Source: Xestospongia bergquistia (Eukaryota; Porifera; Demospongiae; Haplosclerida; Petrosiidae). Taken from it: a stretch of 64,000 nucleotides of DNA. This document shows positions 16,507-48,260 of this stretch, piece after piece (positions within the stretch are counted from its first letter, which is position 1; each line of letters begins with the position of its first letter). The stretch covers positions 4,181,677 to 4,245,676 of the forward strand of contig OZ014419.1 in NCBI GenBank assembly GCA_963965975.1. Direction: 5' to 3'. The notes under the pieces are model-generated. The model was not told the origin of the DNA. It saw only the letters and a list, made by a program, of their open reading frames with translations, and ran no database searches. The translations under genes were made by a program, and so were the position numbers.

Positions 16507-18800
16507 TTAGATGAAATCAATTAACTTGTATTTTTTTATAAAATTATATATTCTTTCTAACATAACATGATGGATATTTTTAGTTTGTTTAGTGAGTGTA
16601 GTTATGACCAATAATTTATCCACTATGTATGAAGTCTTAAAATACATCTAAACAATGTGATGTGACTTCAAAATCAAAACATCAAACTATTTTCTAATAT
16701 CCAACTAGGATAACAGAATACATCTGTCTACAATACCAAAACTTAATTCCTCAGCTTCTCACAACATTTATATCTCTCCCCCTAACCTATCAAAGATTTG
16801 TAGCATGTGTGTTTCACCTTTAGATTGCTTTCTTATCATACATGTAATTATGATATACTTACATAGTATTAAGAGTTCTTAATTGTAGGTGCTTTCTCAC
16901 ACCAACTGGTTGACTATAGCTATTACAATATAAGGGAGGTTGTAGGAGAGGACAGAGATTAGTGGAATTCTCCTCACCAGTTATCTGTGATAAAATGTAC
17001 CAGTAATAATTATACTTTTATATTATAGGATCTTACTCTTATCGAGTTATCATGTCCTCCAGTACAAGTAGCGTTATCTCCAGTACATGTAAAATCTAAC
17101 TGACACCATCCGCATATACCATCTGTTGAGACACAAGAACCACATCTGAAATTAAAAGTTGAGTAATATTAGCAAAAAGCTCAGGTAAGCAATCTAACCA
17201 AATCATGTTTATTTTATATATGAAATGATTCATTTAAAAGTACTTGTCGTGTGAATGGGAATGTTGCAAATAAACACTAAAGTTACCAGGTGTGTGTGGA
17301 TACTAGGTAGTTAGTACATGAAATAATTAATATCCATTTTTCCCATTGCTCTAATTATTGTAAACCATAACTCTGTATGAGTAACAATTACTGTAACCAT
17401 ACCTAAATAATGTATGAAATTCACACATGTATGAGTAACAAGTATTTTAACCATACCAAATTAGGATAAATAATGTATGAAATTCACAAATGTCTGAGGA
17501 ACACAAAGTATGTATGTCTATAAAAATAATCTTGTTTCTTATTGTTCATTAAAGGAACATAACTGTATTACAGATTTACTTTGTAGTAACAGAACAGTTA
17601 TAGAAGATATAATGGTCAGTATGTATGAAGAAATTCACTCCACTATGATTACTATAGATAATAAAGTTAGTGATTAAAAGAGAAACATTAAAAGATAGTT
17701 AGTAATCAATGATGTACTTTACCTAGTTGTATATCGGTGACTTGAGATATGACATTATCTACTTGACAAATGGCACTAGTACCATTTACTTGTAATGGAC
17801 TTAATATCTCAATATTTAGAGATTAAATACACAGAAATACTTCTCTCCTGATAACTTAGGAGGAGGACCAGCAGGAGAGAATGCTATATTGATCTAGATA
17901 GTAAGATTATTTAGGAAAAAATCTCAATATGACATAATACCTGGTATGGCGTTGATTCTAACTCCAGTACAAATTGAGATGGATCAATAATGACAGTACT
18001 AATACAACTGTCATTATTCCCTTGTGTCAAGAATCGTCCTGATACATTGCTATCATGACAGAAAAGTCTATAAGAACATTTACCCTCCACTACACGCCAC
18101 CCACACAGTAGATTACCCAGATTAACACACTCGTTACAACTAGTAGCACTAGCACACTCCTCTATCTTTAAAACAATTACCTATCAACAAACATTATGTT
18201 ATATAGTACAATATATATATACTAGTACTTACATCAGTAGTTCCTTTAATACCATGTATATAGTCTGAACCTTCTGACCAGATAAGATTAGTTATTGAAC
18301 TAGTCATCTCAACCTCAGTAATAAGACTAAGGTTTCCATCATTCCACAAATACTGTAGAATAGATTAATACATCAACTAGAGTATAGTATATATCTCTGA
18401 CCTTGTTAATATAGTGTTTGTTACTATCAGAGAATGCAATATAAATGAAGTTGAGATCATCTGCAGTCAGTCCAAGAATAGATTTTAGTCCATTACTTAT
18501 TGTAATGTTAGTAATAATATTGGTAGAAAAAAGATCATCAGAAGCACCTACTGTTGGGAAATTACCACTAATATGACACTATAAAAAGAAAGAACAGTTA
18601 AATGCATTAAATATCTCATAATTTAGCTCAATATTTAGCAGTATATCATCTAATGTCTTATATATCGAGTAAGCCACGAGTGATCGTACACCATCGATGA
18701 TCAAACACGCTTGTGTGCATTATGCTAACCTGAAGAGAACACTACTGCCACCAAAGTTTAAAGCAAAGGTCCCTCTACTACTGATATGGCTTTCATCCAA
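14544..18800 (-). CDS. Plexin-like ectodomain receptor (sema-end/PSI/IPT, TM, short tail)
   Basis: Multi-exon minus-strand gene with introns of about 45-100 bp. In order: an exon near 18720-18790 (LDESHISSRGTFALNFGG); exons at 18365-18580 and 18237-18356 resembling the end of a semaphorin beta-propeller (DDLNFIYIAFSDSNKHYINK; YIHGIKGTTD); a PSI cysteine module at 17945-18170 (CNECVNLGNLLCGWR); an IPT segment with AGPPPKLSGEKYFCVFNL at about 17820-17895; a second PSI at 17040-17145 (CGSCVSTDGICGWCQLDF); a third PSI at 16010-16190 (CSWCDSN); IPT exons with LVRIQGTNLDIG (about 15930) and TLILDGVTSPDSSQCEF (about 15270). A transmembrane helix follows at 14620-14680 (GGIIGAVIIIVIVLL), then about 23 cytoplasmic residues and TAA at 14544. 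The plexin GAP domain is absent, so a ligand-binding or decoy role is inference. Oddities: TGA at 16112-16114 in the third PSI, and a one-base frame problem near 15950. Confidence 0.6.
16467..16503. repeat. (GA)n microsatellite
   Basis: Uninterrupted AG repeat in an intron of the plexin-like gene, just upstream (minus strand) of the exon reading SSITYQCLFGNMVRTS. Confidence 0.9.
18640..18800 (-). promoter_or_regulatory. CpG-bearing segment near the plexin-like 5' end
   Basis: Bases 18660-18715 and 18985-19040 hold far more CG dinucleotides than the surrounding AT-rich DNA, between the first recognised plexin-like exon and the 3' end of the PHD gene, both on the minus strand. A promoter for the plexin-like gene is plausible, but no core element stands out. 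Calling it regulatory is inference from position and composition. Confidence 0.25.
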
Positions 18801-19115
18801 TTTGAAGTTTGCATTATAATAATAATAAATTAAAAAGTAAAAATTTCGAAAGCAGGTATGTTCGGTTCATTAGCATAAGTTTTCCATTCCCTCGGTTTTC
18901 TTCACACAGCAAGAGCATGAGATGGATTTATTGTAAGCCTGGACATGTTATGTCCTTGTTCTTTCTGTACAGTGAAACTCAAATGTCTCGAGCGAGTGCA
19001 GTGCTCACAGCAAAGCGACGGAGAAGACACGCCCACAAAATCGCTTTTATTACAATATTACCACAACTTAGTGAGACGGAGTATTATATGAGACATCAAA
19101 AAAACAATTTCATGT

Positions 19116-19372
19116 CTAGCAAAAATCTTGACAAAAGTAAGTTTCTGGAATTGAGCATCTGTTGGTCAGAATAGTACACTTAAAATCATACCAAGCATTA
19201 CAGTGATCACAGCAGATCCATAGGCTTTCATCATCATCTCCATACATAATACCACAACAGATATATTCAATTACACCTTATTTTCATGACTCCTGATCTG
19301 TAAAACAAATACTAGTCATCTTAACAGGTTTTGTGGACACATTCTTGCGTTTATCCTCTCTTTTCTTAGGTA
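19116..19372 (-). CDS. Lys/Arg-rich exon plus terminal PHD-like zinc-finger exon
   Basis: These are the last exons of a minus-strand gene whose upstream part is the 10.4-kb array. The exon at 19313-19372 begins after a TTATAG acceptor in phase 1: PKKREDKRKNVSTKPVK, a possible nuclear-localisation stretch. A 36-bp GTATTT..AAG intron (19277-19312) is the simplest way to skip TGA and TAA in the same frame. The final exon (19116-19276) reads LWICCDHCNAWYDFKC and ends TYFCQDFC-stop. That matches the second half of a PHD finger (W-x-x-C-x2-C-x2-W-Y-H-x2-C..C-x3-C), with Asp where His is expected and no clear second Cys in the first pair. PHD fingers read histone tails; zinc binding here is doubtful. 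The same kind of terminal exon ends the pogo-like element at 43887-44056. The intron splice sites are inferred. Confidence 0.55.
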
Positions 19373-22300
19373 CTATAACAAAATATATAAACACAGTTTG
19401 AATAAATTTCTAGCTCACCACTAGTGATTTTATAAAGGCGTCTAGTATCACCATTATCTGAGCAAAGAGTATGACCTACTAACTGTATTAACACAGATTG
19501 AATGAGTTTCTTTCACTTACTACTAGTGACTTTAGAGAGATGTCCAGTACAACCATTATCTGAGGGAAGAGTGCAACCTACAAACTGTATTAATATAAGC
19601 TGAATGAGCTTCTTTAACTTACTACCAGTGACTTTAGAGAGATGTCCAGTACCACCATTATAAGAGCTAAGAGTATCACCATTGTCTCATTGAAGGGTAC
19701 GACCAACTAAATGTATTAAGACAGGTCAAATGAGCTTCTTTAAGTTACAGTTACAATTTTTAGAGATATGCCCAGTACCACTATTATCTGAGCGAAGAGT
19801 ACGATCTACTAATATTATTAAGACAGGTTGAATGAATTTCTTTAACTTACTACAAGTGACTTTAGAGAGACGTCAAGTACCACCATTATCTGAGCTAAGA
19901 GTACCACCATTATCTGAGCTAAGAATACCACCATATCTGAGTGAAGAGTACGACCTACTAACTGTATTAACACAGGATGAATGAGTTTCTTTAACTTACA
20001 ACTAGTCACTTTAGAGAGATCTACAGTACCACAATTATGTGAGCTAAGAGTAACACCATTATCTCACCAAAGAGTACTAACTACTAACTGTATTAACACA
20101 GGTTGAATGAATTTCTTTAACTTACTACTAGTGACTATAGAGAGACGTCCAGTACCAACATTATCTGAGCTAAGAGTACCACCATTATCTGACCAAAGAA
20201 CACAATTTACTAATTGTATTAACACAAGTTGAATGAAATTCTTTAACTTACTACTAGTGACTTTAGAGAGATGTCCAGTACCACTATTTTTTTAGCTAAA
20301 ACTACGACCAGCTAAATATATATAAACACAGGTTGAATGAGCTTATTTAACTTACAATTAGTGACTTTAGAGAGATGTCCAGCACCACCATTATCTGAGC
20401 TAAGAGTGCCGCCATTATCTAAGGGAAGAGTACGACATACTAACTGTATTGATACAGGTTGAATGAGTTCTTTTTGTATTAATGTAAGTTGAAGGAGTTT
20501 CTTTAACTTACTACCAGTGACTTTAGAGAGATGTCCAGTACCACCATTATCTGAGCTAAGAATACAACCATTATCTGAGTGAAGAGTAGGACATACTAAC
20601 CATATTAACACAGGTTGAATGAGTTTCTTAAACTTACAATGAGTGACTTTAGAGAGATGTCCAGTACCATCATTATCTACCTAAAAGAACCACAATTTTC
20701 TGAGTGAAGGGTACGATCTGCTCGGTTTCTTTAACATACTACTAGAGACTATAGAGAGATGACCAATAACAACATTATCTGAGCTAAGAGTACCACCATT
20801 ATCTGAGCAAATAATATGACCTACTAACTGTATTAACACAGTTTCAATAAGTTTCTTTAAGTTACTACTAGTGATCTTAGAGAAATGTCCAATACCACCA
20901 TTATCCATACTAAAAGTACCACAATTACCTGAGTGAAGAGTACGACATGGTAAATGTGTACAGGTTGAATGAGTTTTAATAACTTACTACTAGTGACTTT
21001 AGAGAGATGTCCAGTACCACAAGTATCTGAGCTAAGAGTACCACCATTATTTGACCATAAAGTATGATCTACTAACTGTACTAACACAGGTTGAATGAGT
21101 TTCTTTAACTTACTACTAGCGACTTAGAGGAATATCCAGTACCACAATTATGTGAGCTAAGATTACTATTATTATCTGAGCGAAGAGTACAATCTACTAA
21201 CTGTATTAACACCAGTTGAATGAGTTTCTTTAACTTACTACTACTGACTTTAGAAAGACAACCAGTACCACCAATATCTGAGCTAAGATTACCACAATTA
21301 TCTGAGTGAAAACTACAACCTAATAACTGTATTAACACAGATTCAATGAGTTTCTTCAACTTACTACTAGCGACTTTAGAGAGATGTCCAGTACCAGCAT
21401 TATCTGAACTAAGAGTACCACTATTACCTAAGCAAAGAGTAAGATCTACTAACTGTATTAACGCGAGTTTGAATGAGTTTCTTTAACTTACTACTAGTGA
21501 CTTTAGTTAGATTTTCAGTACCACCATGATCTAAGCTAAGAGTATCACCATTGTCTCAGTTAAGTGTACAACCAACTAAATGTGTTAACAAAGGTTGAAT
21601 AAGTATCTTTAACTTACAATTAGTGACTTTAGAGAGATGTCCAGCACTACCATTATCTGAGCTAGAGTACCACCATTATCTGAGTGAAGAGTATGATCTA
21701 CTATTTTTTTTACCACAGGTTGAATGACTTTCTTTAACTTACTACTAGTGACTTTAGAGAGGTGTCCAGTACCCCGATTATCTTCACTAAGGTAACCACC
21801 ATTATCTGACCAAAGAGGATGACCTACTTACTGTATTAACACAGTTTTAATGAGTTTCTTTAAGTTACTACTAGTGACTTTAGAGAAATGTCCATTATCT
21901 GCACTAAGAGTACCACATATTATCTGAGCGAAGAGTATGACCTACTATCCGTGTTAACACAGGTTGAATGACTTTCTTTAACTTATTACTAGTGACTTCA
22001 GAGAGATGTCAAGTACCACCATTATCTTAGTGAAGAGTAGTGCCATTATCTGAATGAAGAGTACCATCATTATCTGATATAAAAGTATAACCTACTAACT
22101 ATATTAATACTGCATGAATGGGATTCTTTAACATACTACTAGAGACTATAGAAAGATGACCAGTAACAACATTATCTGAGCTAAGAATACCACCATTATC
22201 TGAGCAAATAGTATGACCTACTAACTGTATTAACACCAGTTTGAATGAGTTTCTTTAACTTACTTCTTGTGACTTTAGAGAGATGTCCAGTACCACAATT

Positions 22301-24406
22301 ATCTGAGCTAAGAGTATCACCATTATCTCAGTGAAGAGTACGACCTACTAACTGTATTAACACAGGTCGAATGAGTATCTTTAACTTACAATTAGTAACT
22401 TTAGAGAGATGTGCAGTACAACCATTATCTGAGATAAGAGTACTACTATTATCTGAGCGAAAAGTATGATCTACTATCAGTGTTAACACAAGTTGAATGA
22501 GTTTCTTTAACTTACTACTAGTGACTATAGAGAGATGTCCAGTACCAACATTATCTGAGCAAAGATTACCACCTTTATCTAAGCAAAGTATATCACCATT
22601 ATCGGAATGAAGAGTACGACCTACTAACTGTATTAACACAGGATGAATAAGTATCTTTAACTTACAATTAGTGAGTTCAGAGAGATGTCCAGTAGCACAA
22701 TTATCTAAGCTAAAAGTATCACTATTATCTGAGTGAAGAGTACGACCTACTAACTGTATTAAGTTATTAACACAGGTTGAATGAGTATCTTTAACTTGCT
22801 ACTTGCGACTTTAGAGGGATATCCAGTATCACAATTGTCTGAGATAAGAGTACTATCATTCTCTGAGTGAAGAGTATGACACACTAACACAGGTTGAATG
22901 AGTTTCTTTAACTTACTACTAGTGACTTGCAAAGATTACCACCATTATCTGAAAGAAGAGTACGACCTACAAACTGTATTAACAGAGGTTTAATGAGTTT
23001 ATTTCACTTATAATTAGTAACTTTAGAGAGATGTCCAGCACCTGAGCTAAGAGAACCACCATTTTTTGAGCGAAGTGTACAATCTACTAACTGTATTAAT
23101 AAAAATTGAATGAGTTTCTTTAACTTACTATTAGTGACTTTAGAGTGACGTCCAGTACCACCATTACCTGAGATAAGAGTACCGCGATTATCTGAGTGAA
23201 GGGTATGATTTAATCACTGTATTAACACATGTTCAATGAGCATTATTAACTTACTACTAGTGACTTTAGAGAGATGTCTAGCACCACGCGCTAAGATTGC
23301 CACCATTATCTAAACGAAAAGTACGACCTACTAACTGTATTAACAGAGGTTGAATGAGTTATTTTACTTACAATTACTAACTTGAGAGAGATGTCCAGCA
23401 CCACCATTATCTGAGCTAAGAGAACCACCTTTTTTTGAGCAAAGTGTACGATCTACTAACTGTATTAACAAAGGTTGAATGAGTTTCTTTAACTTACTAT
23501 TAGTGACTTTAGAGTGATGTACAGTACCACCATTATCTGAGATAAGAGTACCGCCATTAGCTGAGTGAAGAGTACGATCTACTAATTCTATTACCTCAGT
23601 TTGAATGAATTTCTTTAACTTACTACTAGTGACTTTAGAGAAATGTCAAGTACCACCATTTTCTGAGCTAACATTACCGCGATTATCTGAGTGAAGGGGA
23701 TGATTTAATCACAATTTTCTGAGCTAAGATTACCGCGATTATCTGAGTGAAGTGTACGAATTAATCACTGTATTAACACATGTTGAATGAGTTTCTTTAA
23801 CTTACTAATAGTGACTTTAGAGAGATGTCCAGCACCATGACTGTCTGCACTAAGATTACCACCATTATCTGAGTGAAGAGTACGACCTATTAACTATATT
23901 AACAGAGGTTGAATGAGTTTATTTCACTTACAATTACTAACTTTAGAGAGATGTCCAGCACAACCATTACCTGAGCTAAGAGAACCACTATTTTCTAAGC
24001 GAAGCGTACAATCTACTAAATGTATTAACATAGGTTGAATGAGTTGCTTTAACTTACTACTAGTCACTTTAGAGAGATGACCAGTACAACCATTATCTGA
24101 ATGAAGAATACCACCATTATCTGAGTGAAAACTACGACCTACTAGCTGTATTAACACAGGTTGAATGAGTTTCTTTCACTTACTATTAGTGACTTTACAG
24201 AGATGTCTAGTACTAAAATTATCTGAGCTAAAAGTACAACCATTATCAGAGCGAAGAGTACGATCTACTAACTGTATTAACGCCAGGTTGAATTAGTTTC
24301 TTTAACTTACTTCTAGTTACTTTGGAGAGATGTCCAGTAGTACAATTATCTGAGCTAATAGTACAGCCATTATCTAATGTTATCTGAGGTAATAGTACCA
24401 CCATTA

Positions 24407-24934
24407 TCAGAGTGATGAGTAGAATCTACTAACTGTATTAACACAGGTTGAATGAGTTTCTTTAACTTTAGAGAGATGTCCAGTACAACCATTATGTGAT
24501 CTAAGAGTACAACCTTTTCCTGAGCGAAGGGTATGACCTACTAACTGTATTAACAAAGGTTGAATGAGTTTCTTTAACTTACTACTAGTGACTTTAGAGA
24601 AATGTCCAGTACCACCATTATCTGAGCTAAGAGTACCACCATTATCTGCGTAAAGAGTACGACCTACTAACTGCATTAACATAGGTTGAATGAGTTTCTC
24701 TAACTTACTAATAGTGACCTTAGGGAGATGTCCAGTACCACCATTATGTGCTCTAAGAGTACTGCCCTTATCTGACCGAAGAGTAAAACATACTATCTGT
24801 ATTAACAAAGGCTGAATGAGTTTCTTTAACTTACTACTAGTGACTTTAGAGAGATGTTCAGTACAACCATTATGTGATCTAAGAGTACAACCTTTTCCTG
24901 AGCGAAGGGTAAAACATAATGACTGTATTAACAA
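24407..24934 (-). CDS. Longest open stretch in the array (about 4 units)
   Basis: 175 codons open through both exon-like and intron-like blocks of four consecutive units, repeating GCTLRSHNGCTGHLSKV and KLKKLIQPLLIQLVGHTL. It shows that the unit is divisible by three and that retained 'introns' would stay in frame. If transcripts are spliced at GTAAGT, the KLKKLIQP segments are removed. No known domain is recognised, and there is no independent start signal, so this is not a separate gene. Confidence 0.35.
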   Translation of the reverse strand: MLIQSLCFTLRSGKGCTLRSHNGCTEHLSKVTSSKLKKLIQPLLIQIVCFTLRSDKGSTLRAHNGGTGHLPKVTISKLEKLIQPMLMQLVGRTLYADNGGTLSSDNGGTGHFSKVTSSKLKKLIQPLLIQLVGHTLRSGKGCTLRSHNGCTGHLSKVKETHSTCVNTVSRFYSSL

Positions 24935-25679
24935 AAACTGAATGAGTTTCTTTAACTTACTACTAGTGACTTTAGAGAGATGCCCAGTACAACTATTATC
25001 TGAGCTAAGAGTCCAACCAGTATCTGAACGAAGATTACCACTGTTATCTCAACAATGAGTATGATCTACTAACTGTATTAACACAGATTGAATGAGGTTC
25101 TTTTAACTTACTACTAGCGACTTTAGAGAGATGTCCAGTACCACTATTATCTGAGCTACGAGTACCATCATTATCTGAGCGAAGAGTACATCCTACTAAC
25201 TGTATTAACTCAAGTTGAATGAGTTTCTTTAACTTACTATTAGTGACTTTAGAGAGATGTCCAGTACCATGATTACCTGCTCTAAGAGTACCACCATTAT
25301 CTGAGCAAAGAGTACAAACTCCTAACTGTATTAACACAGATTGAGCGACTTTCTTCAACTTACAACTAGGGACTTTAAGCAGACAACCAATACCACCATT
25401 ATCTGAGCAAAGAGTACCACCATTACCTGACCTAAGAGTACTGCCATTATCTCACTCAAGAGTACAACCTACTAACTGTATTAACGCAGCGTGAACGAGT
25501 TTCTTTAACTTACTTCTAGTGACTTTAGAGATATGTCCATTATCAAAATTATCTGAGCTAAAACTATCATCATTATCTGAACGAAGTGAACCACTTTTAT
25601 CTGAGCTATGAGTACGACCTATAGTAACACAGGTTGAGTGAGTTTATTTAACTTACCATTGGTGACTTAGAGAGATTTC

Positions 25680-25886
25680 CTAGTGACTTTAGAGAGATGT
25701 CCAGTACAGCCATTACCTGAGCTATGACTCAGATAATGGCGGTATTCATAGCTCTGGTAATGGCTGTACTGGACATCTCTCTAAAGTCACTAGTAGTAAG
25801 TTAAAGAAATTTATTGAACCTGTGTTAAAACAGTTAGTAGATTGTACTCTTGCTCAGATAATTTTTGAATACCGCCATTATCTGAG
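25680..25886. repeat. Inverted unit inside the array, bounded by two hairpins
   Basis: Bases 25728-25886 hold an array unit in the opposite orientation to all neighbours. It is bounded by inverted repeats: 25680-25727 pairs with 25747-25792 over about 48 bp with one mismatch near the middle, and 25728-25747 pairs with 25867-25886 over 20 bp. Near-perfect arms indicate a recent local inversion or template switch. Confidence 0.8.
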
Positions 25887-28800
25887 TGAAGAGTATGACT
25901 TAATAACTGCAATAACTTAGGTTGAATGAGTTCCATTAACTTACTATTAGTGACCTTAGTGAGACGTTCAGTACCACCATTATGTGCAGTACGTGTACGG
26001 CTCTTATCTGAGCAAAGAGTACGACCTATGAACTGTATTAACACATGTTGAATGAGTTTTCTGAACTTACTACTAGTGACTTTAGAGACATGTCCAGCAC
26101 AACAATTATCTGAGCTAAGAGTCCAACCCTTATCTGAACTAAGAGTACCACCATTATCTGAGCTAAGAGTCCAACCATTATCTGAACTAAAAGTACCACC
26201 ATTATCTGATCAAGGAGTATAACCTACTAACTGTATTAAAAAAAGTTGAATGAGTTTCTTTAACTTACAACTAATGAATTTAGAGAGACGTTAAGTACCA
26301 TTATTATCTGTGCTAAGAGTACCACTGTTATCTCACTGAAGTGTGTGATCAACTAACTGTATTAACATAGGTTGAATGAATTTCTTAAATTTACTACTAT
26401 TGACTTTAGAGAGATGTCCAGTACCACCATTATCTGAACTAAAAGTACAACCTGCTAACTGTATTAACACAGGTTTAATGAGTTTATTTAACTTACCATT
26501 AATGGCTTCAGACAGATGTGCATTAAATCATTATCTGAGTTAAAAGTACCACCATTATCTGAGCGAAATGTACAACTTACTAACTGTATTAACACATGTT
26601 GAATGAGTTTCTTTAAATTACTACCAGTAACTTTAGAGAGATGTCCAGTACCACCATTATCTGGACTAACAGTATAACCATTATCTGAGTGAAGACTACG
26701 ACCTATTAACTATATTAACACAGGTTGAATGAGTTTCTTTAACCTACTACTAGCAAATTTAGAGAGATGTCCATTACCACCATTCTCTGAGCGAAGAGTA
26801 CTGTCGTTATCTGAGCAAAGTGCATGACCTACTACCTGTATTAACACAGGTTGAACGAGTTTCTATAACTTACTACTAGTGACTTTAGAGAGACATCCAG
26901 TACCACCATTATCTGAGATTAGAGTACCGTCATTATCTGAGCAAAGAGTACGATCTACTAACTGTGTCAACACAGGTTCAATGAGTTCTTTAACTTGTTA
27001 CTAGTGACTTTAGAAAGATGTCTAGTACCATGATTATCTGAGATATGAGTACCGCCATTGTCTGTGTAAAGAGTACGACCTACTAACAGCATTCACATAT
27101 TAGCGACCTAAGGGAGACATCCAGCACTACCATTATATGTGCTATGAGTACCGCGCATATCTCAGAGAAGAGTACGACCTACTGTCTGTATTAACACAGG
27201 TTCAATGAGTTCTTTAAACTTACTACTAGTGATTTTAGGGAGATATCCAGTACAACCATTGTCTGAGCTTAGAGTCCAACCATTATCTAAACGAAGAGTA
27301 TCACCATTATCTGAGCTAAGAGTACGACCTACTAACTGTATTAAAAGGGGTTGAATGAGTTTCCTTATCTTACTACTGGTGACTTTAGATATCCGTCCAG
27401 TACAACCATTATCTGAGCAAGGATTACCAGTATTACCTGAGCTAAAAGTACCAACATTATCTGAGCAAAGTGTACAACTGACTAACTGTATTAACACATG
27501 TTGAATAAGTTTATTTAACTTACAATTAGTAACTTTGAGAAAAGTCCACCACCAACATTATCTGAGCTAAAAGAACCACCATTATCTCAGCAAGGAGTAC
27601 GATCTACTAACTGTATTAACAGAGGTTAAATGAGTTTCTTTAATTTACTACCAGTGACTTTAGAGAGACGTGATGTAGCACCAGTATCTGAGCTAATAGT
27701 ATGACCATTATCTAAGTGAAGAGTACGACCTATTTACTGTATAAACACAGGTTGAATGAGTTTCTTTTACTTACTACTAGTCACTTTAGAGAGATGTCCA
27801 GTACCACGATTATCTGTGCTAAGATTACCACAATTATCTAATAAGGAATATGACCTACTAACTCCAATAACACACATTGAATGAGTTTCATTAACTTACT
27901 ACTAGTGACTTTAGAGAGATGCCACTACCACCATTCTTTAAGCTAAGAGTACCATCATTACCTCAGCGAAGTGTACGATCTTCTACCTGCATTAACACAG
28001 CTTGAAAGAGTTTTTATAACCTACTACAAATGACCTTAGAGAAATGTGCAGTCCCACCAGTACCATCATTATCTGAGCGAAGACTACGACCTACTAACTG
28101 TATTAACACAGGTTCAATGTGTTTCTTTCACTTATTACTAGTGAATTTATGGAGATCTCCAGTACCATGATTACCTGAGGTATGAGTACAGCCATTATCT
28201 AAGTGAATATTACGCCGTACTAGCATCATTAACATAAGTTGAATGAGTTTCTCTAACTTACTATTAATGACCTTGGGGAGACTTCCAGTACCATCATTAT
28301 ATGCACTGCGAGTACTGCCTTTATTTGAGCGAAGACTACGACCTACTAACTGTATTAACACAGGTTCAATGAGTTTCTTTAACTTACTACTAGTGACTTT
28401 AGAGAGATGTCCAGTACAACCAATATCTGAGCTAAGAGTCCAACCATTATCTGATGGAAGAGTACCACCATTATCTGAGCTAAGAGTACGAAGTACTAAC
28501 TGTATTAAAAGAGGTTGAATGAGTTTTGTTATCTTACTACTTGTGACCTTAGAAATCCATCCAGTACAATCATTATCTGAGCAAAGATTTCCAGCATTAC
28601 TTGAGCAAAGAGTACCACCAATATCTCATACAAGAGTACAACCGACTAACCGTATTAACACAAGCTGAATAAGTTTTTTTAACTTACAATTAGTGACTTT
28701 ACAGAGAAGTCCAGCAACACCATTATCTGAGTTAAGGGTACGACCATTACCATTATCTGAGTTAATGGTACGACCATTATCTGAGTGAAGTACAGGACCC

Positions 28801-29856
28801 ACTAACTGTATAAATACAGGTTGAATGAGTTTCTTTAACTTACTACTAGTGACTTTAGAGAGATGTCCAGTACCACGATTATCTGCACTAAGAGTACCAC
28901 AATTATCTGAAAGAAGAGTACGACCTATTAACTGTATTAACACAGGTTGAATGAGTTTCTTTAACTTACTTCTAGTGACTTTAGAGATATGTCCATTAAC
29001 AAAACTATCTGAGCTAAGAGTACCACCATTATCAGACAGAAGTGTACGATCTACTAACTGTATTAACACAGGTTGAATGAATTTTTAATAAGTTACTGCT
29101 AGTGACTTTACAAATGTGTCCAGTACCACAATTATCTGAGCTAAAAATACAACCTGCTATCAGTATTAACACAGGTTTAATGAGTTTATTTATCTTACAA
29201 TTAGTAACTTTAGAGAGATGTCCAGCACCACCATTATCTGAGTTACGAGTACCACCAATCTCTGAGAGAAATGTACAACTTACTAACTCTGTTAAGACAT
29301 GTTGAATGAGTTTCTTTAACTTACTACCAGTGACTTTAGAGAAATGTCCACTACGAACATTATCTGACCTAAGAGTACCATCATTATCTAAGTGAAGTGT
29401 ACGACCTGAGTTTCTATAACTTACTACTAGTGACTTTAGAGAGACTTCCTGAACCAAAATTATCTGAGCTAAGAATACCACCATTATCTGTGTGAAGAGT
29501 GCTGTATTAACACAGGTTGAATAAGTTTATTTAACTTACTACTAGTGACTTTAGTGAGACGTCCAGTACCACCATTTTCTGACAGTACTGCCATTATCTA
29601 AGTGAAGAGTATGACCTACTAACTGTATTAAGACAGTTTGTGTGAGATTAACTTAATGCTAGTGACTTTAGAGAGATGTCCAGTACCGCCATTATCGGAG
29701 CTAAAAGTACTGCAATTATTTGACTGAAGTGTACGAGTTACTAACTGTATAAAGACAGGTTGAATGAGTATCTTTCACTTACTACTAGTGACTTTAGAGA
29801 GATATCCAGTACCACCATTATCTAAGCTAAGAGTACCGTGATTATCAGAATGAAGT

Positions 29857-29992
29857 CAGGCCAGATATTTGAGACCTGGGCACGATCTTCCCACTTCGCT
29901 CGCCGTTACTGAGGGAATCCCAGTTGGTTTCTCTTCCTCCGCTTATTGATATGCTTAAGTTCAGTGTGTAGCTCTCGCTCGATCTGAGGCCG
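29857..29992 (-). rRNA. 28S rRNA 5' end fragment
   Basis: Minus strand reads CTTAAGCATATCAATAAGCGG and TTCCCTCAGTAACGGCGAGC, the universal start of eukaryotic large-subunit rRNA. Only about 135 nt are present; at 29856/29857 the sequence passes abruptly into the 126-bp repeat array, so thousands of bases of 28S are missing. The stretch between the two conserved blocks also differs from the usual GACTACCCGCTGAA. Not functional. Confidence 0.85.
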
Positions 29993-30207
29993 CATATAGT
30001 TCAGACACTGTGCCCAGTTCTCAGGGAAATATGCACCTGCAACCGCTGGCTATAACTTCCCCACAACTCTGCACGACCACTTCACGCCAACTCACACTGG
30101 AGGTGCCCCCCTTCATTACTTCCTCAGGAAGCCAGGGGCCCTCAACCGACAGCTGACTCTCCTCTTGCTGGCAGCTAATGTCGAGAGTCGGATGGCTACA
30201 GACAATT
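29993..30207 (-). other. ITS2 spacer
   Basis: GC-rich spacer between the 5.8S and 28S sequences, about 215 bp. Boundaries are set by the flanking rRNA motifs and are approximate. Confidence 0.7.
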
Positions 30208-30366
30208 TCAACGGCCCTCAGCCGAACGTGCCCGGAGAGCTGGCAAGGCGCAATGTGTGTTCGACAATTCGATGATTCACTGAATTCTGCAATTCGCAGC
30301 ACACTGTCGCGCTTTGCTACGGTCTTCATCGATGCACGAGCCAAGGGATCCACTGTTGGAAGTTGT
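30208..30366 (-). rRNA. 5.8S rRNA
   Basis: Minus strand contains the conserved core CTTGGCTCGTGCATCGATGA, then GACCGTAGCAAAGCGCGAC and GAATTGCAGAATTCAGTGAA, ending around the ACATTGCGCCTTGCCAGC block. Length about 158 nt, as usual. It looks almost intact, unlike the flanking 18S, but lies in a truncated rDNA piece. Confidence 0.85.
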
Positions 30367-30567
30367 ACTTCCATACCTTTATAAAAAAAGACTCAGGACA
30401 CACATCACAAAATGACAACAAAATCAGCTCAACATAAATGCCCGGGGGACCCTTCAGCTCATGGAACAGGTGCCCAAACCGATCGTGCACACTCGATCGG
30501 TTGTAAACAACTACTGACCGAACCAACAGAGAACGAAACGCCAAAGTGCCTCCCGAACGCAGACCGG
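30367..30567 (-). other. ITS1 spacer
   Basis: About 200 bp between the 3' end of 18S and the 5' end of 5.8S. Moderately GC-rich, no other feature. Confidence 0.7.
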
Positions 30568-30600
<33 letters not shown>

Positions 30601-30769
30601 ATTGTTAAGACTTTTACTTCCTCTAGATGATGTATTAAGAATGACTTCTCGGAAACTCTCGGGCAACCGTCGCCGGACGCCAAGGCTCCAATCCGAAGTT
30701 CTCACTAAACCGTCCAATTGGTAGTAGCAACGGGTGGTGTGTACAAAGGGCAGGGATGTAATCAGCGCC

Positions 30770-30804
<35 letters not shown>

Positions 30805-31236
30805 CGAGATCGACAATTGCAACCATCTATCCCCAGCACGACGGAGACTCGCAAGATTGCCCGCACCTCCCGGCGAAGGACACAGGTCTGTGATGCCCTT
30901 AGATGAAGAACATCTAAGGAAATCACAGACCTGTTATTGCCTCACTCCTCCCCTGGCTGAAACGCCGAAGAAGTTGCCTGGCTGAGAGCGGGGACGCCAG
31001 CCGCCGAAGAAGCACTCACGAGACGCAGCTGCCCCGACGCTGACACGACGCCCGCCGTTAGGAAACGGCACGACTAGTTAGCAGGTTAAGGTCTTGTTCG
31101 TTAACGGTCTTGTTCGTTAACGGAATCAACCAGACAAATCACACCACCCATAGAATCAAGAAAGAGCTCTCGATCTGTCAATCCTTCCCATGTCCGGACC
31201 TGGTGAGGTTCCCCGTGTTGAGTCAAATTAAGCCGC

Positions 31237-31277
<41 letters not shown>

Positions 31278-31757
31278 TTTTCAGCCTTGTGACCATACTC
31301 CCCCCGAAATCCAAAGGCTTTGATTTCTCCAAAGGTGCCGACGGAGTTGCACCCGATCCCTAGCCAGGATTGTTTATGGTTGGGACTACGACGGTATCTG
31401 ATCGTCTTCGAACCCCCAACTTTCGTTCTTGATTAATGGAAACATCCTAGGCAAATGCTTTCGCACTCGACCGTCTTCCGTAAATCCGAGAATTTCACCT
31501 CTGACAACTGAATACGAATGCCCCAACTGTCCCTATCGACCATGACTGCTGTCCCGAAAACCAACAAAATAGGACAAAAAAAGCAGCCCTATTCCATTAT
31601 TCCTTGCTAACGTATTCAAAGCAACCGGCCTGCTTGGAACACTCTAATTTGTTCAAAGTAAACGTCTCGAACTCCCCGACCGCTGCAATCAAGAGCAGAC
31701 AAAGCCTCCGAGAGCACAGGGAGCCGCTGGGCAGTGCTCGCCTCTCGGCGGATTGAT
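30568..31757 (-). rRNA. 18S rRNA 3' two-thirds, pseudogene
   Basis: The 3' end GAACCTGCGGAAGGATCATTA is at 30568. The fragment continues through conserved 18S blocks (TTTGTACACACC, GGGAGTATGGTCACAAGGCT) to GAATAATGGAATAGGGCTGC, then stops at about 31757, so roughly the first third of a ~1.8-kb 18S is absent. Invariant sites are altered: GTCGTAACAAGG near the 3' end reads GTCTTAACAATG. Several CpG sites are TpG/CpA (ATTACATCCC; ACACCACCCGTTG). About 25 nt of the core between GGGTGGTG and GATTTGTCTGG are missing near 31142. A 16-nt block is tandemly duplicated at 31090-31121. A 22-bp foldback replaces helix sequence at 30884-30932. It cannot form a working small subunit. Confidence 0.9.
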
Positions 31758-32836
31758 GTACTTGATGGTAACATAACAGTTGTATATTATATTTTTTATA
31801 ACCTGGTATTCGACCAGGCAATAAGATTGAGTTGGCTTCTGAAAAATTTTGAATAAATGTTATTACTCTTGTTACTTCTTCAGGAGTGAATGCGTGGTGT
31901 GGTTCTCTTCCAGTGTTACCGTGTTTTCTAACAATAATAATTACAATGGTATTTCTTTATTGAATAGTTTACCTTGTTCTAACTCCATCCTTTAGGAATG
32001 ACTGCTTTATCGCCTGTAACCTTTGTTTACCAATGCCATGTAAAAACAGGAAGGTCTTTTTACATATCTGTAGAGTTTTGTTAATATTATTATTATTATG
32101 TTTAGTGATACCTTCAGTCCATTATGCATGAAATGTGCGTATGAATGGTCCCTTTCCTTTGGAAGGTGTCTCAACCTTGAAGTGAAGTTTCCCGCCCGTG
32201 TGGTAGCTATAAGCTGACCCATTATTAAAAGGTCCATTTCTTGTTTGCTTAATTCAGCCATGTCATTTCTTATAGCCCTGTAGTGTGTCTCAGAAAACTG
32301 TTCAGAGCATTTAGCTTGACACCCACACCCCTCATTGAAGAAGGTTTTACATACAGTCTCCTCTTCAATATCTATAAGTCTCTCACTAACCCCTACTTCT
32401 GTTTCAGATCTAGGAACTACAACAGCTGGAATGATGGCTGGTTCTGCAATTAAATTTCATTTTTTGTGGTTTTTGAAATAATAGAACCTTCAGATTGATG
32501 GTCAAAAGGGTCTTCGAGCTCATGTGTGAAATCTTCATTTACTTCTACTTCCATTCCAATGTCAATTATGTCTTCCATTTCTAAACCATTATCTTCATTA
32601 TAATCTGTTATTAATAACCATAATAAGTAGATTCATAGCAATTTCCTGTCAACGTGTGTGAAATACTTATTGTGTGGTAATTCATCATCCCTTTCGAAAA
32701 AATAATCTTCAATAAGGCTACGAATGCCTTCATCAAGAGTTAGTGGGATTCTGCCACTGTTAAGCAGCCGAGCGATCGCTTCTTCATTAGAGCTGGCCAA
32801 TTTAAATTTGTTTACACGCAATGGTTGCCATCGCAA
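31758..32836 (-). CDS. Multi-exon conserved invertebrate gene, 3' part replaced by rDNA
   Basis: At least four minus-strand exons. Exon 1 (32836 to about 32650): GRIPLTLDEGIRSLIEDYFF. A second exon (about 32480-32600) is acidic (MEDIIDIGMEVEVNED). After a ~45-bp intron, 32112-32450 reads NEGCGCQAKCSEQFSE, ELSKQEMDLLIMGQLIATTR and ending in GLK. After the 44-bp intron 32068-32111: TFLFLHGIGKQRLQAIKQSF. After the 45-bp intron 31928-31972: KHGNTGREPHHAFTPEEV and NSILLPGRIPGYKKYNIQLL. The LHGIG..RL and LLPGR-I/V-PG-Y/F-K motifs recur in a large family of uncharacterised cnidarian and sponge proteins, probably of transposable-element origin (memory, not a search). A 2-nt insertion near 31775 shifts LL-PSSTS out of frame just before the sequence turns into 18S rDNA, so the C-terminal half is lost. 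Confidence 0.6.
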
Positions 32837-35808: not shown

Positions 35809-36658
35809 GGTCTTAGAGTCAAATGGAGAAGCACAAGATTGATGACTTAGAATCAAATAATTCTGAAACTATAGAACATGTTGATTATTTTATGACCGTT
35901 TATCACTTCTCCTACCACCTGACTTAAATGATTAACACTAAAGATCAAGTGATTTATCAGTCTCTTGTAGCAACAATAATTCAAACTATTTTTAATATAC
36001 ACATAGCCAGTACCACATTTATTGCAAACTAGTGATTAGATCAAATAAGTTAACAATCTCGTGCATGCTAGCCACAACCTCCTAGTATATCAGTCATATA
36101 TGTATAATGGTGACTATTAGAAGCAAACCTAATCATAAAATGTATGAAAAGGTTTCTTTTAACTTGTGTAATCATTGTTTAGAAAACAGATCTAATCATA
36201 TCATAGTGAATTATCTTATTACATATATTCACTGATTAGTTTACTATGACAATCACAGACTATCCATCCATTGTCCTTTATCATTTATCCATTCATTTTG
36301 TTATACATCCATTAAGACCTCAGAAGATGAGCTAGAGCAAAGTATAATTTGTGATAACGTCCTCATTAGTTACCTTGAATACTACAAAACCCTTCATTTT
36401 TTCTATTAAATATTCGAGACTACTTCGTAATTATGAGGTAGGTGGAATCATAGTATTGCATGAATGTTCTCTTTACTAATTCGTTGATTAAAAAAGTATA
36501 CTAATTTAAAATAATAATATAACAATGAACATACTGAATATGTTATTGTTTGTTATAAATATTTACATTGTACTGTACAAATTGAAAATAATTGTCACAT
36601 TATGATACAAGTTTCAACACTCCTTTACTTTACATTTGTATATAATCTTACTAAATTA
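34410..36658 (+). other. Decayed gene remnants and simple repeats
   Basis: Apart from the exon-like piece at 34950-35008 and a short frame after the CT tract at 35812 (VLESNGEAQD-stop), no coding exon is supported. CCAT-type tetranucleotides occur near 35460-35510 and 36260-36310. Confidence 0.4.
35752..35809. repeat. (CT)n microsatellite
   Basis: Long TC run ending in a CTCTAG acceptor-like site, the same arrangement as at 3484-3553. Polypyrimidine microsatellites appear to have grown from splice-acceptor tracts in this genome. Confidence 0.9.
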
Positions 36659-36800
36659 GATATCAATATTAGTAGATATGATATCAGCGTTGATAGGTCT
36701 GATATCAGCATTTCTAAATCAGATATCAACATAAGTAAATCAGATGTCGGTATCAGTGTACGATCAGATATCTGTGTTAAAAATCATGTTGATGCCTGTT
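36659..36800 (+). repeat. 21-bp in-frame repeats at the edge of the satellite
   Basis: At the left edge of the large satellite the + strand frame reads DINISRY, DISVDRS, DISISKS, DINISKS, DVGISVRS, DICVKNH: about six heptapeptide-coding 21-bp units built on GATATCA. The same GATATCA/AGATCAG words make up the larger ~85-bp monomers that follow, so this may be the simplest surviving form of the satellite. Confidence 0.65.
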
Positions 36801-42621: not shown

Positions 42622-43370
42622 TTACTAACTACAACATCAACAAAGCAAATAATGATTACTTCTACCTCACACTGTCCAGCTCACCCACTTCATTCCCAAA
42701 TATCTCTCTTAATTCTGTCTTCCTTTTGACCTCTCTTTAATAAAGACACTCAACAGGGCAGCTGGGCCCTGTAGCTCACCCCTTTCTTCTCCTCCACTCC
42801 TCTCACCAAAGAAGCATAAACATGAAAGAAGTATCTCCAGGTCAGCTATACCAAAATCCTCACTGTTAGGTCCTTCCCAATAATGTAGCAACATGAGGAG
42901 AATGAGCAAAAGTACTGGCAGCTAATAGTAACTATGATACTCTTAAGTAACACAAGTAGCAGTTTTAATTTCTCTATTCCTAATATACCAAGTTTAACGA
43001 AGGATTATTTTGGTTGCATATAAGAGTGCTGCCTCTTCATGTGGAGGTCTACTTACATAACAGGTTTATGCTCACATGAACTATGAATGTTATTATCGAG
43101 TGTGAATAATTATTGGTGAATTTATTAATTATTTATTTTATGTATGTACGAAAACTGTTTGACTCTTTCTTTCTCTATAGATGTTCTAGTAATATTACAA
43201 TGAATGAGAGTCTACTATTGCTTTGTAATAATATCATTAATAGTAATAGGAGAAGTACGTCACAGAACAAACCAGGTATATTTAATGAATGGATGGATGG
43301 AGGGTAACAATAGATGACAAGTGATGACAGAGTGATGGACATGTCAATGAAGTCAATGGATGGATCAGTA
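42622..43370 (+). repeat. Segmental duplication, copy 2 (left of the pogo insertion)
   Basis: Matches 33060-33813. It stops exactly at a TA (43369-43370) where the pogo-like element begins, and continues for about 18 bp on the other side (48263-48280). The exon at 43182-43276 is intact here too. Confidence 0.9.
43182..43276 (+). CDS. Exon of an unidentified + strand gene (copy 2)
   Basis: Copy of the exon at 33614-33708, with a CTCTATAG acceptor and CCAG|GTATAT donor. The frame is open: MNESLLLLCNNIINSNRRS then TSQNKPG. The downstream exon found at 34239 is not found after this copy, since the transposon and unrelated DNA follow. Confidence 0.4.
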
Positions 43371-43757
43371 GGGTAAACGGCGATTAAACGGACGAGTCCT
43401 TTTTTCGGACGCTATATCTTCAGACCTGAAGATGCTATTGATATGGAACCAACTGAATCTGAAAGACAAGGCTTTTAAACCTTGGAGTTGCAAAAATTAA
43501 CTAGATCGCAAGTATAGCCTTGATGTTAGAGGCGGGAGAAAAGGAAGTCTTGGTAAATGTTTACTCGAACGGGTGGTACCATTGAACGGACAGCACTTAA
43601 CACTTGAGACAGAACAAACCAATTGTTCCAAATCTAACAAATATAATTTGTTCACATATCGAAATACATCTGTAATAAATTTCAGCTAAAGCTGACTACG
43701 ATGTAATTAACTATGGTCGATGAGAAATATTCAGCACGCGGGCCCATTAAACGGACA
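43371..43757 (+). repeat. Left terminal inverted repeat
   Basis: About 387 bp, reverse-complementary to 47874-48260 with only scattered differences (for example ACGAG versus ACGGG near the tip). It starts GGGTAAACGGCG and ends near GCCCATTAAACGGACA. The subterminal ATTAAACGGAC motif occurs at both edges of the repeat and could be a transposase-binding motif. Confidence 0.9.
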
Positions 43758-43886
43758 TACGTAACAAAAGGGTGTGGCTTTATTATTTTAAAGTATTAAT
43801 TTTATTGTAGCAATAGTGTATGTAGGCCTAATTATTACGTGAATACAAAAATTATAGACATTTGTCACATTACATAAATACAAAAA

Positions 43887-44056
43887 TTATTGACATTTGT
43901 CACAGGAGAAGTTGACTGTATTTTTCATCCTTAGTTTCAATCCAACACAAACTTGATGAAATCATCCTCCACAGTACTCACATTCTACCCACTTATAAGC
44001 TTTGGGATGCTCACACTTCTTATTATCGCAATTTGTAATAACTTGTCCAGTGTCTG
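43887..44056 (-). CDS. PHD-like terminal exon with TGA at the conserved Trp
   Basis: After a TGTATGCAG acceptor, phase 1: DTGQVITNCDNKKCEHPKAY, then KWVECEYCGG, a TGA, then FHQVCVGLKLRMKNTVNFSC and DKCQ before TAA. All eight zinc-ligand positions of a C4HC3 PHD finger are present; only the Trp before F-H is lost, by TGG to TGA. In a functional relative this finger would bind zinc and probably a histone tail, which could steer integration. Here translation would stop inside it. Confidence 0.7.
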
Positions 44057-47000
44057 CTGCATACAAAATATTATTTGTAAAAATTAATTATAATTACCTC
44101 TCTCATTAACATTACTGCGTGTAGATCTAGTAACTTGTTCAGTAAATCCAATAGGAACAATATCTATATCAATAAATACAACATACTCTAGTTAACTATA
44201 AAAGTACTATTACCTCTCTCATTAGTAAGTTGAGTGCATCCAGATCTAGTACCTCGCCCAGTTACTCCAGTAGGAACAACATCTGTATCATTAAATACAT
44301 TATATTCTAGTTAACTATAAAAGAACTATTACCTCTTTCTTTAGTAAGTTGAGTGCGTGTAGCTCTAGTACCTTGTCCAGTAGGAACAATATCTGTATCA
44401 TTAAATACATTATATTCTAGTTAACTATAAAAGAACTACTACCTCTTTCTTTAGTAAGTTGAGTGCGTGTAGCTCTAGTACCTTGTCCAGTAGGAACAAT
44501 ATCTGTATCATTAAATACATTATATTCTAGTTAACTATAAAAGAACTATTACCTCTTTCTTTAGTAAGTTGAGTGCATGTAGATCTAATACCTTGTCCAG
44601 TAGGAACAATATCTGTATCATTAAATACATTATATTCTAGTTAACTATAAAAGAACTATTACCTCTTTCTTTAGTAAGTTGAGTGTGTGTAGCTCTAGTA
44701 CCTTGTCCAGTAGGAACAACATCTGTATCATTAAATACATTATATTCTAGTTAACTATAAAAGAGCTATTACCTCTCACTTTAGTAAGTTGAGTGCGTGT
44801 AGATCTAGTACCTTGTCCAGTAGGAACAACATCTATATCATTAAATACATTATATTCTAGTTAACTATAAAAGAACTATTACCTCTTTCTTTAGTAAGTT
44901 GAGTATGTGTAGCTCTAGTACCTTGTCCAGTAGGAACAACATCTATATCATTAAATACATTATATTCTAGTTAACTATAAAAGAACTATTACCTCTCTCA
45001 TTAGCAAGTTGAGTGCGTGTAGATCTAGTACCTTGTCCAGTAGGAACAACATCTATATCATTAAAAACATTATATTCTAGCTAACTATAAAAGGACTATT
45101 ACATTGTTAGTAAGTTGAGTGCATGTATATCTCCTACTTTGTCCAGTTATTCCAGTGGGAATATTCTGTATGATAAATACTAGCTGAGTTATGATACATT
45201 AATCTTTTATCTTTGCTAATCATGATGAGTGCAGTTATAGAAATAGTGTCTACTATATCTGTTACTCATACAACTTCTCTAAATAATTTGATGTCAATTT
45301 GTCATGCCAACACAATATGCCAAAACCCAAGGTTTAATAAGAGTTGCCGTGATTATATAGTTCATTAGATGTCGTTCCTACTGGATTAACTGGAGGAGGT
45401 AGTAGATCTACACATACTACACTTAGTAGTGATGTTAATGAAAGAGGTTACAGTGCATATATACTATATAGTTGATTATGAATATACACAGGTCACACAC
45501 ACCTTAATTACTAACCTTGTAGTAGTAGTTTCTGTTCATGCTCTATCTTTTCTTTCTGTTTGTTAATCTTTTCCTCTTGCTCTTGAATCCGTTTCAGTTG
45601 TGCCTCAATCTTCCGTTGGTGCTGTTCTTTCTTTTCTTTGTTCTTTTCATCTCGTTTTCTTTCCCTTTCCATTTTGTTTCGTTCTTTTCTTTTGATTTCA
45701 GCGATTATTTTCTCTTCCTTTTCTTTTAATCTCTTTCGATTTTCTTCACTTGTGATCACCTTAGCAGAGGAAGAAGGATTTGATAAAACAGGTAACTTAA
45801 TAGAAGATACTTCTTTGTCCAATACTTTAGCCAATGTTCCAGTTCATTTGAGCAGATTGACAGGTTGAGCTATGTTAGTGTCAAGCTGTTTTGGAGCAGT
45901 AAATGTATGCTGTAACCTCAGCCATGTATTATAACGAGTATCAGTATCAATATCATAACCTTTCCCTTGTCTTCTTCTATACTTTGCTTCTTCTTCAGCA
46001 GCAAATACAAAGTCATCTTCTGTTATTGAGTTGTCATCATTGTTCCTCTCTGGTGATAGTGGTGAGTCATAATATGATGGATCATAACATGTTTGATGTC
46101 CACTAGCTGCAATGGTGTCGAGCGGCTTTTGAGAAGTGAACGTATGCTGTGACCTCAGCCATGCATTATAACGAGTATCAGTATCAATGTCATAACCTTC
46201 CTCTTGTCTTTTTCTATACTTTGGTTCTTCTTCAGCAGTAAATACCAAGTCATCTTCTGTTATTGAGTTGTCACTATTGTCCCTCTCTGGTGATAGTGGT
46301 GAGTCATAATAAGATGGATAATAACACGACATCCTACTTAATGATCTTAACTTTGATAGATTAGAAGGACTTAAATGACATGAAGGTGATGGTGTGATAT
46401 TGATAGAGTGCAATTGAGAATGCTCAAGGGTAGAAGGTGGAGTAGACTGATAAACATGGATATGAAAATGAGACTGGGGTTGAGGTGTCTGAAGAGGCTG
46501 CAGAAATGGGATGTGTTGATTTGATATGGGGGAGCTCTTATCTTCAGCAGGGAGCAATTTTGTCTTGTCAAGAGGGTAAATACCTGTGTTACGAAATTCT
46601 GAAATTATATTCAAAGGTGTCATAGCTTTCAGCCATGATTTGCTAAATACTGTGGAGAAAGAAAACTTAGAAACGACTTTTCCGGGGTTCTTCAACAGGA
46701 ATGCATGACATTCTTCTCTCCATGCTTGTTTAAGGGGAGAAAAAGCACCTTTATCCAATGGTTGGGTGCGGTGTGTACTATTGGGAGGGAGACACATTAC
46801 TATGATTTTCTCATTTGCTGCCCTATGTATGAAATCAGGTGTGAAATGAGATGAATGACCGTCCATTAGTATCAATAATGGACGAGCTGGTGGGGCATAT
46901 CTTAGAAAATGAAAAGTAAACCAATCAGAGAAAATTTCTTTGTTGATCCACCCACTTTCTGACAAACCATACATTGTTCCTGGAACTTCCCCTACATCCA

Positions 47001-47703: not shown

Positions 47704-47873
47704 GATGCTATAAAATATGAACCATAAGTAAAAAATGCCTAAATTTACTTCTATACTACCTTTTCAACGATAGATATCCTATCTTCATACACAGATTAGT
47801 CGACTGAGAGTTGACAAATTTCAAATTCAATTTTCACTTCACACACGTGCTTGTCACTCTGCTTACCGTAGTT

Positions 47874-48260
47874 GTCTGTTTAATGGGCCCCCGTGCTGAA
47901 TATTTTCTCATCTACCATAGTTAGTCACATCGTAGTCAGCTTTAGCTGAAATTTATTACAGATGTATTTCGATATGTGAACAAATTATATTTGTTAGATT
48001 TGGAACAATTGGTTTGTTCTGTCTCAAGTGTTAAGTGCTGTCCGTTCAATGGTACCACCCGTTCGAGTAAACATTTACCAAGACTTCCTTTTCTCCCGCC
48101 TCCAACATCAAGGCTATACTTGCGATCTAGTTAATTTTTGCAACTCCAAGGTTTAAAAGCCTTCTCTTTCAGATTCAGTTGGTTTCATATCAATAGCATC
48201 TTCAGGTCTGAAGATATAGCGTCCGAAAAAAGGACCCGTCCGTTTAATCGCCGTTTACCC
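47874..48260 (-). repeat. Right terminal inverted repeat
   Basis: Reverse complement of 43371-43757. It ends CGCCGTTTACCC before the TA duplication. The transposase promoter should lie in or beside it, since the transposase start is at 47703. Confidence 0.9.

Follow-up and report, generated by a model that had tools for sequence, protein, structure and literature searches.

Many short, phase-symmetrical exons whose lengths are multiples of three are found in several host genes, including the PEVK region of titin, nebulin and the micro-exon genes of schistosomes. Among mobile elements, the Tigger transposons of Porifera are 2288-3872 bp long according to a table in PMC9219625, and Tetris of Drosophila virilis is described in PMC4079207 as an apparently non-autonomous transposon whose terminal inverted repeats contain the repeats from which a satellite was born. 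Here we describe a tandem array in a 64,000-nucleotide stretch of the genome of the sponge Xestospongia bergquistia (contig OZ014419.1, hereafter the window; C9:4181677-4245676 in our contig numbering), which we compared with the genome from which the window itself comes (146.5 Mb, 21 contigs). Sequence comparison indicates that this array is very probably the amplified middle of the gene of a pogo/Tigger-type transposon, F1, in which short symmetrical exons would be spliced between a transposase and a PHD-like finger. The initial annotation of the window had already recognized spliceable-looking cassettes leading to a PHD-like exon, but overlooked that these belong to a Tigger-type transposon with relatives and that a second such family (F2) is present in the window.

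Predicted gene structure of the F1 transposon

The F1 unit has at least 756 matches in the genome. Short F1 arrays occur on contigs C1, C3, C5 and C10 (93-98% identity among the units listed), and together with their flanks they constitute four copies of one element of 5.1-5.9 kb, mutually 97-99.6% alike over the best-aligned pieces. The inverted ends are 385 bp long and 99.2% identical, as measured on the C10 copy alone, and by eye TA is present at both ends in all four copies. The C10 copy has a frame of 631 residues with HTH_psq (30.3 bits, Pfam cut-off 20.4), HTH_Tnp_Tc5 (26.7 bits, cut-off 22.2) and DDE_1 (92 bits, cut-off 22) domains, and its translation contains MDESG, LDGHSS and PLDKG as candidate Asp motifs. 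This combination of domains implied that F1 is a pogo/Tigger-type DNA transposon.

The transposase frame leads to a GTAAGA donor in phase 1. Downstream of it lie predicted array exons of 81, 84 or 60 nt, numbering 13 on C1, 17 on C3 and 20 on each of C10 and C5, with predicted GT-AG introns of 39, 40, 42 and 46 nt, and the last exon begins with VPKKRE and continues into the PHD-like finger. When spliced in silico the C10 copy gives 22 exons encoding 1182 residues without a stop, and the C3 and C1 copies likewise give 1114 and 1018 residues. These three copies are located at C1:4014972-4018625, C3:8687755-8691860 and C10:3384875-3389308. Read unspliced from the donor, the two copies checked show 44-60 (C1) and 68-84 (C10) stops per frame, a consequence of frame shifts at the 40-nt introns; each copy has 6-9 introns of a length not divisible by three. 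The 42-nt introns are open, so that translation would continue if only these were retained. The architecture, frame and phase of the predicted F1 gene, and the variation in the number of its array units, can thus be read directly from these sequences.

The last exon of F1 resembles PHD fingers of known structure: its PDB matches with E <= 0.01 comprise 12 distinct sequences, the best being 1we9 (6e-6), ALFIN-LIKE and MLL5 (4e-5 to 2e-4). Six Cys residues are invariant across eight aligned last-exon relatives. At the position that we take to be the ligand His, placed by assuming the Cys4-His-Cys3 pattern of PHD fingers, an Asp is seen by eye in F1, F3 and two distant relatives (L033 and L034), as opposed to a His in F2 and F4 and a Gln in F5. 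As Asp replaces His in F1, and the Pfam PHD score is below the cut-off of 24 bits in F1 (18.9 bits) and barely above it in F2, we refer to this exon as PHD-like.

Based on these observations we propose a gene with the order seen in the open copies, namely a DDE transposase exon, tandem short exons and a last exon with a PHD-like finger. Each array exon would be in phase 1 at both of its boundaries, with a length divisible by three in nearly all cases, and would be paired with a separate GT-AG intron of roughly 40-54 nt. As the unit is a whole exon plus an intron, gain or loss of units would keep the spliced frame open and render growth and shrinkage cheap. The array would then be a minisatellite with an exon-plus-intron unit, whose expansion is masked by splicing and whose unit number presumably changes through unequal exchange. 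The protein would correspondingly gain or lose a low-complexity linker between its catalytic core and the finger, through which the transposase may be tethered to chromatin. The arrays of old copies are likely to have extended to about 10 kb and then degenerated into satellite-like DNA, an example being the array in the window. We infer that the introns of the arrays are really spliced.

The window array as a decayed copy of F1

In the window the following features belong to F1 or delimit it:

18660..19043, no strand assigned: F1 inverted terminal repeat on the PHD side, 93% identical to both C10 ends (blastn)
19116..19372, minus strand: Lys/Arg-rich and PHD-like last exon, decayed, with one TGA and one TAA in frame
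19373..19418, minus strand: last intron, GTGAGC...TTATAG, 46 nt, like the intron block of the array
19378..29855, minus strand: expanded exon-plus-intron array from cyclic alignment; exons mostly of 84 nt, also 108 or 60 nt, introns mostly of 42 nt
29856..31820, minus strand: ribosomal DNA (rDNA) fragment truncating the transposon, with 5.8S at 30212-30364 and 18S at 30568-31820 (Rfam), and by eye the 5' end of 28S just past the array

The array of about 80 cassettes reported in the initial annotation is real: over 10.5 kb, cyclic alignment resolved 83 main units of about 126 nt, 74 with and nine without an optional 24-nt block, and 18 additional 24-nt copies. Its partition of the unit into an 84-nt phase-1 block and a 42-nt block extending from GTAAGT to ACAGTTAG was accurate, and the GTGAGC/TTATAG junction that it placed in phase with the Lys/Arg-rich and PHD-like exon is indeed present. 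This exon aligns with the open F1 exon over 85 of 85 residues at 76% identity, with a Pfam PHD score of 17 bits, under the cut-off of 24.

The units show a mean identity of 0.875 to a 126-nt consensus, which translates as SDNGGTGHLSKVTSSKLKKLIQPVLIQLVGRTLRSDNGGTLS; its 42-nt block is open in the frame of the exon, so that the consensus unit is open even when unspliced. Pairwise identity between units is 0.78-0.79 at all 11 lags tested, suggesting that the array is old and lacks local homogenization, and both CpG sites of the consensus are among its most decayed positions. Among 81 full units 52 have an intact exon, 37 an intact exon together with GT and AG, and 29 are damaged (8, 10 and 11 in successive thirds of 27 units); the longest run of units with both exon and GT-AG intact is three. 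The 43 exons of 84 nt contain eight stops, as against 10.5 +/- 3.1 in neutral simulations. Given that stops are found all along the array at the frequency expected under neutrality, the window copy does not encode the thousands of residues envisaged earlier, and the fallback offered alongside them, a relic of such a gene, fits it. The window copy is a decayed relic of the F1 transposon cut off by rDNA. The F1 transposase exon is absent from the window, where matches to the F1 transposase protein fall only on the transposase of F2. Further kilobase-scale F1 arrays are present elsewhere on C9 (L038, L039, L041 and L042), with 62-65 units within 9.9-kb stretches.

The rDNA copy, bordered directly by the F1 array on one side and by a further transposon-like gene on the other, is shortened, with positions 1-1831 of the 18S model matched in 1253 bases and the 5.8S complete; by eye its 18S part includes an inverted duplication near 30885-30945. 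Two open reading frames ending at the rDNA (31597-32456, minus strand) resemble pieces of a transposon-like gene by eye and have no Pfam match. On the plus strand the F1 consensus unit contains TACTAACTGTATTAACACAG, which resembles a branch point plus acceptor; the conservation of its TACTAAC positions, 0.85-0.95, is nothing special.

Arrays of the same design in four more families

Comparable arrays can be discerned in four more families, with F2 being a second Tigger element of 4.9 kb at 43369-48262 of the window:

43369..43757, no strand assigned: F2 inverted terminal repeat on the PHD side (390-bp inverted match, 97.4%)
43887..44056, minus strand: F2 PHD exon with one in-frame TGA; Pfam PHD 25.6 bits against a cut-off of 24 with the stop entered as X
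44057..44097, minus strand: F2 last intron, GTAATTATAA...TATGCAG, 41 nt
44147..45147, minus strand: F2 array of 60-nt exons (one of 69 nt) and 50-nt introns, eight full units, all eight exons open
45511..47763, minus strand: F2 transposase, whose 639-residue frame at 45844-47763 (HTH_psq and DDE_1) is followed by an in-frame TGA and then by a Lys/Glu-rich stretch as far as 45511
47873..48262, no strand assigned: F2 inverted terminal repeat on the transposase side

The 639-residue frame is about 44-46% identical to that of F1 and scores 86.8 bits for DDE_1 (cut-off 22) and 44.5 bits for HTH_psq (cut-off 20.4). The F2 unit of 110 nt is not a multiple of three, and its intron is stop-rich. Family F3 (L029-L032) combines 54-nt exons with 42-nt introns in 3-5 full units; in F4 the exons measure 72 nt and the introns 54 nt, with 3 full units in L043 and 13 in L044, the latter showing two shifted exons and four stops; and F5 (L045) has 72-nt exons and 51-nt introns in five full units, with extra sequence between the array and the PHD-like end. 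By eye this extra sequence (C4:5326800-5329500) resembles an Ulp1-like protease region. Inverted ends were established for F1 and F2, and the transposases of F4 and F5 are known solely from DDE_1 matches just upstream of their arrays. The exon sequences are unlike between families by eye, with the arrays all situated between a Lys/Glu-rich transposase tail and the last exon. F4 units have at least 668 matches, with long runs on C3, C4 and C9; some of the C9 matches repeat at an offset of 38.8 kb.

A search with the F1 last exon recovered 20 matches, 11 on F1 copies and nine on relatives (L029-L037): four F3 loci with arrays, the distant relatives L033 and L034, which have a transposase and a finger with no array between them, and L035-L037, which are without a transposase match in 9.9 kb. 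Loci L043-L045 were chosen from neighboring DDE_1 and PHD matches, paired by eye, that lie at least about 1.4 kb apart, which makes the recovery of arrays in three of three a biased rate; L046 and L047 were chosen since an F2 array search matched them. Five further DDE_1/PHD pairs stand outside the counts (C9:4325572, C10:4028450, C4:4207366, C1:5638225 and C2:999880), the first two with F4 unit matches between DDE and PHD.

In total 131 full units were delineated in 14 array copies of the five families. The exon length is a multiple of three in 128 of them, 127 exons are intact, and the introns start with GT in 129 cases and end with AG in 126. The spliced frame contains five stops, the other two frames 121 and 514. 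As copies of a family share ancestry and would inherit an open founder, the independent evidence consists of five families and not of 131 units.

Conservation, selection and alternative explanations

When corrected for base identity, the donor hexamer GTAAGT ranks 1 in conservation among the 126 hexamers of the window unit, and 5, 1, 3 and 1 in L038, L039, L041 and L042. In each of the five old F1 arrays the conservation of the 42-nt intron block exceeds that of the exon (circular-shift fraction 0.008-0.032), and uncorrected divergence is lower in introns than in exons in eight of nine groups, F3 being the exception; for example, it is 0.012 versus 0.050 in F4 and 0.094 versus 0.135 in the window. 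The tests of divergence and of the ratio of nonsynonymous to synonymous change (dN/dS) used exons and introns of the commonest length only, with young F1 represented by C10 only; L040 (five units) was left out of the conservation and dN/dS tests, and F5 out of the latter. In the host myosin-head genes, 16 of 33 introns are 44-62 nt long, the smallest being 44 nt (a rough estimate from adjacent profile matches, using 70 of 101 matches). Hence tiny introns are common in this genome, and the array introns of 39-54 nt fall at or slightly below the short end of the myosin-head range.

A plain coding repeat of 42 unspliced residues was ruled out by conservation in the window array that is flat across codon positions once base identity is allowed for, and by the frame shifts at 40-nt blocks in better-kept relatives.

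Several observations weigh against a spliced array. The initial annotation had looked to the conservation of both splice hexamers; the donor is conserved as it supposed, but the acceptor is not unusually so, ranking 61 of 126 in the window and 17, 32, 13 and 47 in the other old F1 arrays. The encoded residues show no sign of purifying selection, exon dN/dS relative to the neutral expectation being 1.1-1.7 in nine groups; taken with the donor ranks, this suggests that the donors were constrained during array growth and the linker was not. The exact spliced-junction pattern of F1, searched as one pattern, has no match in the genome, so that no retrocopy attests to splicing, and when the tail, a portion of the array and the PHD exon were used to search for proteins (7989 candidates scored), one transposase-domain protein of 624 residues and no spliced array protein came up. 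Three of the 131 exons have a length not divisible by three; these exons and the five spliced-frame stops fall in L047 of F2, L029 of F3 and L044 of F4. The GT-AG boundaries were picked by the analyst, which weakens simple probabilities, and the F4 and F5 donors (GTTATA and GTACGC) are weak when judged against the consensus donor. The four F1 copies are too alike to be independent, and in the C5 copy the transposase exon is broken by stops, leaving 564 residues that are free of stops across the array and up to the end of the last exon. By eye the first F2 unit misfits phase 1, and no F2 junctions could be placed on the upstream side of its array; this misfit and the missing ligand His slightly lower our confidence in spliced exons and slightly raise that in non-coding repeats.

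Such repeats would be ordinary minisatellites in an intron between the transposase and PHD-like exons, with the array skipped whole and the open exons a founder coincidence. In F1 the transposase donor and the last-exon acceptor are both in phase 1, so that skipping the whole array would keep the frame, and the dN/dS values near or above 1 and the unremarkable acceptor speak for this explanation. The window contains other arrays too, and transposon-internal repeats that seed satellites are known from Tetris (PMC4079207). Nevertheless, all five families have an open phase-1 block with a multiple-of-three length between GT and AG, albeit with analyst-chosen boundaries, despite units of 96-126 nt and varied introns. 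Moreover, GTAAGT is the most conserved hexamer, or among the most conserved, in each of the five old arrays, and introns have diverged less than exons in both the uncorrected (8/9 groups) and the base-corrected (5/5 old arrays) comparisons. We accordingly consider the non-coding explanation quite improbable. The window copy by itself, being without a transposase exon, could be taken for part of a host gene with a repetitive linker and a PHD finger. This was dropped as extremely improbable, given the inverted terminal repeat adjoining the last exon in the window and the whole elements on C1, C3 and C10, which are flanked by TA, bear inverted ends and encode a DDE_1 transposase.

A further proposal, which would supplement the spliced-exon reading, is that the array is kept for a function, either isoform or linker-length diversity of the transposase through combinatorial exon skipping or truncation of the transposase through intron retention that limits transposition. 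Any subset of the phase 1-1 exons would leave the frame open, retention of a 40-nt intron would shift it, and the design repeats in five families. Given that dN/dS is about 1 or more, that near-identical copies differ in exon number (13, 17, 20 and 20) and that neutral growth suffices, we regard such a function as unlikely.

Other repeats in the window and the genome

A 5.8-kb array at 36648-42443 of the window has Tandem Repeats Finder periods of mostly 66-85 nt (GATCAGATATCAGTGTTAAGAATCATG...) and a strong GC skew; repeats like its reverse complement are seen by eye at L029:9152-9734. A 28-bp minisatellite occupies 57956-64000, up to the window end. Elsewhere, six contigs carry DDE_1 copies with similar stop tallies at recurring intervals, mostly of 50-225 kb (in one case 16 kb), as if in giant tandem repeats that are perhaps centromeric:

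C5 4.57-5.19, C6 3.37-4.23, C7 4.74-5.18, C10 2.44-2.68, C13 3.30-4.15 and C15 2.44-3.10 Mb: stretches with recurring DDE_1 copies

Implications and comparison with known systems

Taken as spliced exons within a transposon gene, the arrays probably define a class of DNA transposons with a "spliceable minisatellite" in the transposase gene, which would have arisen or been amplified repeatedly in the Tigger families of a single genome, supplying evolvable linkers before a PHD-like chromatin reader and spilling over into satellite DNA. This would link the evolution of transposons with tandem exon duplication and with the origin of satellite DNA, fields that are usually separate. If the arrays are spliced, splicing permits a minisatellite to grow within a coding gene, and the five families in one genome make this testable. 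Satellite-like arrays may carry conserved splice donors, and gene finders blind to 40-nt introns would miss proteins of this kind.

No transposase exon array was described in the literature searched, as judged from titles and the beginnings of abstracts, most subscription papers being outside reach; the terms PHD, intron, exon and tandem repeat never occur in the main texts of PMC7386202, PMC7325037 and PMC9219625 as covered by a term search. F1 and F2 are reminiscent of Tigger/pogo elements (IS630-Tc1-mariner) in their HTH_psq and DDE_1 transposase and inverted ends, and F1 also in its TA ends. Unlike the poriferan Tigger elements, F1 at 5.1-5.9 kb has a predicted multi-exon gene that includes an exon array and ends in a PHD-like exon. 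With Tetris, as described, these elements share a short array inside a DNA transposon and kilobase-size arrays derived from it, but here the unit is an exon plus an intron within the transposase gene rather than a repeat in the terminal inverted repeats. In contrast to titin PEVK, nebulin and the micro-exon genes, the array here resides in mobile elements, occurs in five families and decays to satellite-like DNA.

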